Assembly (NCBI GenBank): GCA_023247255.1
Contig: JAHFGV010000020.1
Span: 1-48,519 of the forward strand
Source: Candidatus Omnitrophota bacterium
GTDB lineage: Bacteria > Omnitrophota > Gorgyraeia > Aquiviventales > Aquiviventaceae
Direction: 5' to 3'
DNA: 48,519 nucleotides
The notes beneath the pieces are model-generated. The model made no database searches. It had not been told where the DNA came from and was given only the letters and a program-made list of their open reading frames with translations. Made by a program: the position numbers and the translations under genes. This document shows positions 1,191 to 39,899 of the stretch, piece after piece; the stretch's first letter is position 1; the number at the start of each line of letters is the position of its first letter.

Positions 1191-1318
1191 AACCCCACAT
1201 CGGGCCACGGCCGAAAGCCATGGGCCCAGTTGGTTTGCTTAAGCGAACGGGTGGGAACGATGTTGCCCCACGCGGGGCGTGCTCTTGGATGTCACAGGTT
1301 TGTCCCGTGGGGCTCCAC
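1191..1318 (+). repeat. Intergenic copy of a dispersed peptide-coding palindromic element (same family as 24105-24225 and 32735-32839)
   Basis: CCCAGTTGGTTTGCTTAAGCGAACGGG..GATGTTGCCCCAC...GTCACAGGTTTGTCCCGTGGGGCTCCAC aligns with the otsB copy. Confidence 0.8.
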
Positions 1319-1548
1319 GAATGGTCGATTGCCCATTGTCGTCGTCGATTCTGATTAATGCGATGGACGTGCCCTTCAATCGAAAATCCAAAATCGACAA
1401 TCGAAAATTCCAAGGCAGTTTTATAATTCTTTAACAGAGGTTAAGTTATTGGTGTCACAGGCTCAGCTTGTGGGGCTCCACAATGGCATGCATTGCCGAG
1501 CAAAAGCAAAGTTGAAGAGTGGGGCAACACTCTAAGGAGATCCGAGGG

Positions 1549-23169: not shown

Positions 23170-23291
23170 ATACAAACGAATTATCTAACGCGACAATGCC
23201 AGAGGATAATTCGTTTGTATCATACGATAAGACATCCTGTCGCGTGCAATACAAACGCACTCAATGTATGAACAATAAGTGCGTTTGTATT
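23170..23291. repeat. Paired-hairpin palindromic element with shared TACAAACG ends
   Basis: ATACAAACGAATTAT/ATAATTCGTTTGTAT (15 bp) and AATACAAACGCACT/AGTGCGTTTGTATT (14 bp), both perfect. Confidence 0.9.
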
Positions 23292-23292
23292 A

Positions 23293-23560
23293 GAGCCCAT
23301 CCCTAAACCCTAGCGTGAGAAGCAAAACGGCCAAAGGCCGCCAGATGCAAGGAGCGACGACGAGACGTAAAGCGTGTGCGATACGGCGAGCAGCAGAGAC
23401 GCCGCAGATGGCGGCCTTTCGCCGCAACCCGAAGGGCTGCGCCGTGCGGCGTTGCTCGTCGTTGCCATACTTCCGTTTCCAAAAGTCAGTCTCCTCCTCG
23501 CGCCTTGCACGGCTTGCCCCTCAGCCCAGCGCGACCACGCTAGGGTTTAGGGATGGGCTG
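23293..23560. mobile_element. MITE-like element with perfect 24-bp terminal inverted repeats, flanked by TA
   Basis: AGCCCATCCCTAAACCCTAGCGTG (23294-23317) and exact reverse complement (23536-23559); TA on both sides; related copy at 34595. Confidence 0.88.
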
Positions 23561-23575
23561 TAGTCATCGGATTGC

Positions 23576-24481
23576 ATGGCTATCCTTGCTGTGATTCCTG
23601 CTCGGTACGGCTCGACGCGTTTTCCGGGAAAGCCCCTGGCTTTGCTGGGTGGCAAGCCGATGATCCAACGGGTGTATGAACGGGTCGCTCAGGCAAAAAA
23701 AGTGGATCGCGTCGTCGTGGCGACCGATGATGAAAAAATCCGTGAGCTCGCCCAGCGCGTGGGGGCTGCGGTGACAATGACTAGCCCTTTGTGTCGCAGT
23801 GGAACCGAGCGCTGCGCCCAGGCGGCTCGAGAGCAAGATGCCGCCATCATTATCAACGTTCAAGGGGATGAGCCCTTCATTCGATCCGAAATGGTGGATC
23901 AGGTGGCGGTGTTTCTTGAGAACCATCCGGCGGTTCCGATGGCTTCTTTGAGGACGCCTTTACATCGTGTAGAGGATCGGAATAACCCGCATGTAGTGAA
24001 GGTGGTTGTGGATAGAGATGGCTTTGCCCTGTATTTTTCCCGTGCACCGATTCCCTTCGTCCCAGAAGGGGCGTGGGGCTTGGGGCTTGGGGCGGGGGAA
24101 TCCTACCCCGTCATTGGGCCACGGCCTTCGACCGTGAGCCACACGGTGGAGCAAGACTCGGGGGGACGGGATGTCACCCCCATCGGGGTGGGAATGCAGG
24201 TGCCACAGGCTTATCCCGTGGGGCCAAGTGCATCGATCTTTGTGCCCCAGCTCTTCAAGCACATTGGACTCTACGGCTACCAGAGGGATTTCTTGTTGCG
24301 TTTGCCTCACCTTGTGCCGACGCCGCTGGAGCAGTTGGAGCAATTGGAGCAGTTGCGCGCCCTGGAGCATGGCTATCGGATTAAACTTTTGGAGACGGCA
24401 TACGATACGATCGGCATTGACACCCCTGAGGATCTGGCGCGGGCAGAAGCCTTGCTGGCTGCCGCTGAGCCTCAAGGATAG
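23576..24481 (+). CDS. kdsB: 3-deoxy-manno-octulosonate cytidylyltransferase with internal in-frame insertion
   Basis: VIPARYGSTRFPGKPLALLGGKPMIQRVYERV...RSGTERCAQAA..INVQGDEPFI...LYFSRAPIPF...FKHIGLYGYQRDFLLR. Confidence 0.94.
   Translation: MAILAVIPARYGSTRFPGKPLALLGGKPMIQRVYERVAQAKKVDRVVVATDDEKIRELAQRVGAAVTMTSPLCRSGTERCAQAAREQDAAIIINVQGDEPFIRSEMVDQVAVFLENHPAVPMASLRTPLHRVEDRNNPHVVKVVVDRDGFALYFSRAPIPFVPEGAWGLGLGAGESYPVIGPRPSTVSHTVEQDSGGRDVTPIGVGMQVPQAYPVGPSASIFVPQLFKHIGLYGYQRDFLLRLPHLVPTPLEQLEQLEQLRALEHGYRIKLLETAYDTIGIDTPEDLARAEALLAAAEPQG
24105..24225 (+). repeat. Peptide-coding palindromic element inserted in-frame in kdsB
   Basis: CCCGTCATTGGGCCACGGCC...GGACGGGATGTCACCCC...GGTGCCACAGGCTTATCCCGTGGGGC; matches 1191-1318 and 32735-32839. 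Confidence 0.85.
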
Positions 24482-27983: not shown

Positions 27984-28116
27984 TGGATGGTAAAGGGATA
28001 TTTTCGATTGTCGATTTTGGATTGTCGATTGAAGGCATCCCTCCTCCATCCAATCGATAATTAGCAATCAAGGACCGGCGATTCAATGAGTCCAGACCAG
28101 AAAGAAGCGAGTTGCC

Positions 28117-32068: not shown

Positions 32069-32116
32069 ACTGGGCTTCTGCAAAACGTCAGCACAGAAAA
32101 ACACAATGGATTGTCC

Positions 32117-33028
32117 ATGCCCTGTCAACATGTTTTGCGTCACTGGAAAGTTTTCCAGACCAAGCTTGACACCGGTAAGTTGTTGCTTCTGACCGATTAC
32201 GACGGTACGTTGGTTCCAATCGCCCGTTCCCCCGATAGCACGAGGCTTTCTCGAAAGACCGAGTCTGTGCTTCAAAAACTGTGCCGGCATCCACGGATAC
32301 GAGTAGGGATCGTGAGTGGGCGTTCCTTGAGTGATCTTCGTAGTCTCATCCGGTTGCCAAAAGCCATCTATGTGGGAAACCATGGCTGCGAGATTCGAGG
32401 GGGTGGACTGATATTTATTCATCCATCGGTCAGGCGATGGCGCCCCCTGTTTCGGATCATCGCTCGTCAGTTGCGTCCGGTGATACGCGATATTCCAGGC
32501 AGTCTTCTGGAGCCTAAAGGACTATCGCTAAGCGTTCATTGGCGCCAGGTGACTGCGCGCCATCTTCCCAAGTTCCAACGCCGCATGCGACATGTCCTGC
32601 GACCCTGGCTGAGCCGAAAGGCCATCCGGGTGACTCATGGCAAACGGGTCATTGAGATACGCGCTCCGGTTGCTTGGGATAAAGGAAGAAGCGTGGCATG
32701 GATCGTTCGGCATTTACCGAGCATGGCCACAGACAACCCCGCCATCGGCCCAGTCGGTTTGCTTAAGCGAGCGGGGCGGGATGTCGCCCCACTTTGGGCT
32801 AAGTCGCCGGTGCCACAGGCTCATCCCGTGGGGCTCCACATGGGGATGATCTATTTGGGAGATGACCGTACGGATGAAGATGCTTTTCGTGCCGTCAATC
32901 GACTGAAGGGTTTGTCGATTTTTGTGGGACGCGACCCCCGATCGACATCGGCGAAAGGGTATCTGGCAAGCTCAGGTGAGGTTTACCAATTCCTGGAACG
33001 ACTGTGGCGGTTGACTCGAAATCCTTAA
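32117..33028 (+). CDS. otsB: Trehalose-6-phosphate phosphatase with in-frame repeat insertion
   Basis: LLLTDYDGTLVPIARSPDSTRLS; YVGNHGCEI; YLGDDRTDEDAFRAVN. Confidence 0.93.
   Translation: MPCQHVLRHWKVFQTKLDTGKLLLLTDYDGTLVPIARSPDSTRLSRKTESVLQKLCRHPRIRVGIVSGRSLSDLRSLIRLPKAIYVGNHGCEIRGGGLIFIHPSVRRWRPLFRIIARQLRPVIRDIPGSLLEPKGLSLSVHWRQVTARHLPKFQRRMRHVLRPWLSRKAIRVTHGKRVIEIRAPVAWDKGRSVAWIVRHLPSMATDNPAIGPVGLLKRAGRDVAPLWAKSPVPQAHPVGLHMGMIYLGDDRTDEDAFRAVNRLKGLSIFVGRDPRSTSAKGYLASSGEVYQFLERLWRLTRNP
32735..32839 (+). repeat. Peptide-coding palindromic element inserted in-frame in otsB
   Basis: AACCCCGCCATCGGCCCAGTCGGTTTGCTTAAGCGAGCGGGGCGGGATGTCGCCCCAC...GCCACAGGCTCATCCCGTGGGGCTCCAC. Confidence 0.88.
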
Positions 33029-34507: not shown

Positions 34508-34594
34508 GGTAGCCTCCTTTTTCTATCACTTTAATACAAAGTGCCGGCAGATTGCAACTGGGATTACCAACCGGTTGCTGCACATCTTTGCTTA

Positions 34595-34903
34595 GAGCCC
34601 ATCCCTAAACCCTAGCGTGAGAAGCACAGCGGCCAAAGGCCGCCAGATGCAGGGAGCGACGACTCGTCCTTGACATTCGAATGTCAAGGACGATGACGAT
34701 AAAGCTGCGTGCGATACGGCGAGCAGGACAGACGCCGCAGATGGCGGCCGTTCGCCGCAACCCGAAGGGCTGGGCCGATGGGCTGCGCCGTGCGGCGTTG
34801 CTCGTCGCTTGCGTACCGCAGACTGTGGTACGCGGCGCACCTTTCACCTTGCGGGTCTCGCAGCTAGGCCCAGCGCAGGGCACGGGAGATTCTGGGACGC
34901 ACT
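34595..34903. mobile_element. Second, degenerate copy of the 23293-23560 MITE family
   Basis: AGAGCCCATCCCTAAACCCTAGCGTGAGAAGC and GCCGCAGATGGCGGCC-TTCGCCGCAACCCGAAGGGCTG shared; right terminal repeat not intact. Confidence 0.8.
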
Positions 34904-39708: not shown

Positions 39709-39899
39709 AAGTCGTTTTTCTTCCCATAAATTCCGCTTCGCGGAATTTATCACCAGACGAAGTCAAGTGATGGGAAAGGAAGAACCAGAAAACCGCGCTC
39801 ATAGACGTGGAGGAATGGCCCAGGGTTCTTCAAGCGAAGCTCGTCAGTGTTTTTCAAGTGCCGCGGGCATGCCCGTGGGTATTTACTGAGGTATTTTCT

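Follow-up and report, generated by a model that had tools for sequence, protein, structure and literature searches.

The window analysed here, a 48,519-nt stretch of contig JAHFGV010000020.1 from a Candidatus Omnitrophota bacterium (assembly GCA_023247255.1), contains two genes, otsB and kdsB, that carry a copy of the same repeat in frame (Table 1). The insert in OtsB comprises 34 residues just N-terminal of the YLGDDRTDEDAF motif, NPAIGPVGLLKRAGRDVAPLWAKSPVPQAHPVGLHMG being encoded immediately ahead of MIYLGDDRTDEDAF. The Pfam family Trehalose_PPase matched both the N- and the C-terminal side of the insert. OtsB orthologues of the same family align as far as residue ∼202 and again from residue 246, with nothing comparable in between, and solved TPP structures split at the same place; the insert occupies a length-variable spot ahead of the catalytic motif. 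The original prediction of an insert directly before this motif was thus borne out as to its location in otsB, while its limits, first placed at 32735-32839, were corrected to a 102-bp shortened copy, its ends being placed as at the empty site of PyrR described below. Relative to the full unit this copy lacks 24 nt, a loss that maintains the frame. The AlphaFold model of OtsB, made from a single sequence, had a pLDDT of 37 and gave no information on the insert.

The kdsB insert was said to share its core, orientation and frame with that of otsB, and sequence comparison confirmed this. A G-rich tract (24067-24105) precedes the kdsB copy and is likewise extra with respect to most orthologues. 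In the AlphaFold model of KdsB, based on 33 homologues, the core had a pLDDT of ∼97 and residues 161-222, all coil, one of ∼50; the insert is therefore modelled as an unstructured loop within a confident fold. Other Omnitrophota genera carry different repeat-derived in-frame segments in this loop (window 24060-24240), such as NPKSKIQNP, GTPSPAKIVPARS and TSDKRQATSDKR (loci L061, L062, L076 and L128). The segment from one relative, G014, had six further matches in the genome of that organism, so that this loop would seem to be a hotspot at which repeats of several families insert. The otsB and kdsB ORFs are both intact, with their motifs present. As searches of this genome found otsB and a full kdsB only once each, the genes with inserts appear to be its working copies.

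Table 1. Genes and copies of the element located in the window
Feature	Position	Strand	Evidence or detail
otsB (trehalose-6-phosphate phosphatase), with in-frame insert	32111..33028	+	Trehalose_PPase match, orthologue alignment
Element copy in otsB, type 1	32737..32838	+	102 bp = 34 codons; frame +2
kdsB (CMP-KDO synthetase), with in-frame insert	23576..24481	+	CTP_transf_3 match, orthologue alignment
Element copy in kdsB, divergent	24106..24224	+	frame +2
Intergenic type-1 copy	1193..1319	+	BLASTN
Intergenic partial copy (3′ hairpin), adjoining the AT-rich repeat at 1373-1408	1437..1490	+	

The element is a 126-bp unit present at about 60 loci

A BLASTN search with the OtsB copy yielded 55 matches in the genome, the best besides itself with E = 1.9e-25, which upholds the earlier view that the resemblance is not due to chance. 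The second of two subtypes, which have both ends in common and differ in the middle, yielded 54 matches as query. BLASTN and profile searches together identified about 60 loci in the 2.18-Mb MAG, most of them intergenic or at gene ends; copies were found on either strand, within and between genes. The aligned unit starts with CCCCGCCATYG and ends with GGGGCTCCACA, and tandem units lie at a spacing of 126 nt.

The pyrR gene provided a clean empty site, GCAA/CAAAGGC (the slash marks the insertion point): orthologues read GAGCGCAACAAAGGC, while this genome has GAGCGCAA followed by the unit and CAAAGGC, which corresponds to an insertion of exactly 126 bp, or 42 codons. No target-site duplication longer than 2 bp was present at this site, the one examined at the DNA level. 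The three bases to the left of the unit were CAA or CGA in 30 of the 37 copies that come first in a row in this genome, and in 23 of 29 in relatives. Judging from these flanks, the element would usually insert just 3′ of a CRA trinucleotide, although in some copies CRA might belong to the element itself. The longest exact inverted match near the termini had only 6 nt. Searches of the window against Rfam, of IMG/VR for the exact core and of phage collections gave no match, nor did a pattern scan of genome contigs, which possibly did not include this genome.

The unit can be drawn with three hairpins, in which 82.5% of cells are paired. Two-sided changes occurred in 10 of the 23 pairs, exceeding shuffled and slid controls; for example, one pair is G-C in subtype 1 and C-G in the other subtype. 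RNAalifold returned a weak common fold only. An exceptional RNA fold was considered and rejected, the folding energy being ordinary (z of -1.6 and -1.3 against shuffles).

Other repeats were noted as well. An AT-rich repeat, CAATCGAAAATCCAAAATCGACAATCGAAAAT, found at window positions 1373-1408 and 28000-28035 and at loci L106 and L089, is often joined to the element; it is read in frame within the ceramidase and NAD-binding proteins mentioned below, giving a peptide like SNRKSKIDNRKFQ. A short hairpin repeat, CCCATAAATTCC(T/G)CTTCGCGGAATTTATCA, lies at 1162-1191 and 39723-39752, and similar text, CGCGGAATTTATCAA, precedes another copy of the element (L101). A longer, GC-rich intergenic repeat (23290-23470 and 34592-34816, ∼88–96% identity) bears no evident relation to the element.

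At least 15 unrelated genes carry the element in frame

The genome-wide search for further in-gene copies, suggested together with the original prediction, identified in-frame internal copies in at least 15 unrelated genes, as judged from open frames, Pfam matches and orthologues. Eleven hosts read the element in the OtsB frame (frame +2). They comprise otsB, kdsB, pyrR (Pribosyltran), an MFS transporter (MFS_1), a Memo-AMMECR1 protein (Memo/AMMECR1), a DUF7948/SBBP protein (matched by these families), a secretin (Secretin), a ceramidase (Ceramidase_alk), a BNR protein, a 902-aa coiled-coil protein and an NAD-binding protein. The count rests in part on ORF evidence where Pfam had no model, as for the last two. 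In the GTPase Der (MMR_HSR1/KH) and a Trm112-type methyltransferase (Trm112/Methyltransf_11) the element is read in frame +1; antisense copies lie in a mandelate-racemase-like enzyme (MR_MLE_C) and a GT2 glycosyltransferase (Glycos_transf_2). Tandem pairs are read in frame in the MFS transporter and the DUF7948/SBBP protein. Orthologues of OtsB, KdsB, PyrR and Der align on both sides of the insert. Several ORFs counted at first were excluded (CDP-OH transferase, phosphorylase, GspH and a NadD-like C-terminus), as their copy is located either ahead of the probable native start or at the gene end. The in-gene copies add Pro/Gly-rich segments of 34–43 residues to the predicted proteins.

In a search of relatives, the element was detected in this genome and in nine others of the same family, and a single borderline match came from elsewhere. 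A broader sample of 285 genomes of the phylum gave matches in this Omnitrophota family only. In relatives of other genera it lies inside UvrA, FolP and CofH (frame +2), and probably, in the same frame, inside NuoC and a BatA-like protein; antisense copies were found inside TrpE and an HD dGTPase. The named relatives of KdsB were all Candidatus Omnitrophota, and the protein of one relative, G021, appeared identical to one encoded by JAUYPJ010000113.1. G021 also contains a 645-aa frame (L211:1823-3757) in which the element lies between GNAT acetyltransferase and DegT aminotransferase domains, which may be a fusion of two genes brought about by the element.

The open frame is kept, the peptide probably only tolerated

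All 18 genic units measured had lengths that are multiples of three, as against 15 of the 22 others (Fisher p = 0.011). Host frames were all free of stops, whereas both length and openness are lost among non-genic copies. In the latter, frame +2 is open more often than any other (16 of 22), and it encodes few Cys and Trp. This frame was used in 11 of the 15 internal insertions, about 32% being expected once frame openness and the phase of CRA in genes are allowed for (p = 0.0013), and in 14 of 20 when relatives were included (p = 0.0006); these p-values rest on a hand-picked set of confirmed genes. With sense insertions only, the excess was weaker (p = 0.03 here, 0.007 with relatives). The frame shared by otsB and kdsB is thus preferred among the in-gene copies of this genome but not exclusive, given two hosts in frame +1 and two with antisense copies. 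The target motif was rejected as the source of this bias, the phases of CRACA and CRA in genes being insufficiently skewed.

In our view the repeat is very probably a short, RPE-like (Rickettsia palindromic element-like), non-autonomous and structured mobile (selfish) DNA element that is tolerated in frame in genes. From the reading frames, the cell appears to translate it as extra loops in otherwise normal proteins. The element would insert as a block of exactly 126 bp, usually right after a CRA trinucleotide, on either strand and in genic or intergenic DNA, with a duplication of at most ∼2 bp. Genes struck out of frame or in their core would be lost through selection, the surviving sample would lean towards the frame that is open most frequently and has few Cys and Trp, and the inserted peptide would be tolerated without being of use to the host. 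The hairpins, the fixed 5′ target and the absence of duplication prompt the guess that a Y1-type transposase (IS200/IS605- or RAYT-like) might move the element in trans. Nine Y1_Tnp (PF01797) matches in this genome (contigs C3, C13, C19, C25 and C43) are a candidate source. Unlike in REP/RAYT systems, none is flanked by the element in the surrounding regions retrieved, which contained only one copy, ∼1 kb from one of the weaker matches; mobilisation through flanking copies was rejected.

It is possible, though we hold it only tentatively, that the element has gone further and evolved harmlessness in genes, its exact 42 codons, single preferred open frame and loop-like peptide poor in Cys and Trp allowing it to spread into coding sequence throughout the family, within a genome-wide tolerance of translated repeats in Omnitrophota. 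The latter part of this reading draws on the other repeat families found in the same KdsB loop.

That the peptide is a functional module, such as a binding or localisation tag recruited repeatedly, would agree with the dominance of one frame and with the core GGRDVAP...VPQAHPVGLH, recognisable in frame +2 copies. We consider it improbable, since substitutions favoured none of the codon positions, whether the copies were genic (46/56/65 for those in frame +2) or not. Moreover, der, the methyltransferase, the enolase-like (mandelate-racemase-like) enzyme and GT2 use other frames or antisense copies, the hosts have nothing in common in function or location, and the inserts are absent from close relatives. 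Selection at the peptide level was rejected for want of a codon-position bias, which indicates a peptide that is tolerated rather than conserved. The earlier suggestion of selection for a tolerated peptide frame therefore holds in part: selection acts on the open, in-frame state and not on the peptide sequence. Insertions that survive because they are tolerated explain the data better than a peptide with a conserved function does.

Still less probable is removal of the insert by post-transcriptional splicing or its skipping in translation (as a mini-intron, intein-like segment or bypass), so that proteins are made without it. Precise cassettes in genes that are conserved and in many cases essential (der, pyrR, uvrA) might be expected of such a process, but removal needs no frame, yet all measured genic units keep theirs and the host frames lack stops; antisense copies are open too, and 34–42 residues are far below intein size. 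That the repeat is an ordinary intergenic REP or MITE, placed in genes through errors of annotation or assembly, is scarcely credible: many copies do lie between genes or at their ends, and some ORFs (CDP-OH transferase, phosphorylase, GspH) simply run into a copy before their start, but the orthologues of four hosts align on both sides of the insert, Pfam or sequence context flanks it in others, and independent MAGs of other genera behave alike.

Relation to known repeats

Protein-internal palindromic repeats are best documented in Rickettsia, where they are often ascribed to relaxed selection in an intracellular parasite. Our search of the literature on Omnitrophota found nothing of the kind. 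For RPEs (Ogata et al. 2000/2002, as summarised in PMC2229807 and PMC10969869), in-frame insertion into 19 genes is reported, as is the activity of a guanylate kinase (Gmk) with an insert. The traits that those sources give for RPEs recur in the present element: a palindromic dispersed repeat of ∼100–150 bp with hairpins, located between genes as well as in frame in unrelated conserved genes, and encoding a recognisable peptide (PMC2229807, PMC10969869). Unlike RPEs, the element belongs to a different phylum, is a strict 42-codon unit with in-frame tandem copies and a CRA left flank, and has no evident terminal inverted repeat longer than 6 bp. We call it RPE-like and not RPE, the comparison made here being one of features.

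GTAG/CGTC-tagged REPs are likewise palindromic and dispersed, sometimes within ORFs including uvrA, with intragenic examples in Opitutus, Thauera and Rickettsia (PMC3733652). However, neither consensus here contains GTAG, CTAC, CGTC or GACG, and the element is a 126-bp block of several hairpins as against 20–40 bp. MITEs that have open frames, among them ERIC/RU-1 and Correia, are also non-autonomous, ∼100–170 bp long and capable of in-frame gene fusion, but they carry terminal inverted repeats and in most cases target duplications (PMC2229807, PMC2759123). Neither feature was found here.

The element thus provides a second large-scale case of this kind, from a phylum far removed from that of Rickettsia; its empty site is clean, its unit has a fixed length and one frame is preferred. 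Models of OtsB, KdsB, PyrR, Der and UvrA from these genomes should be used with caution, as they include selfish segments. The Omnitrophota case makes testable both the adaptation of an element to coding sequence and the origin of new protein loops.
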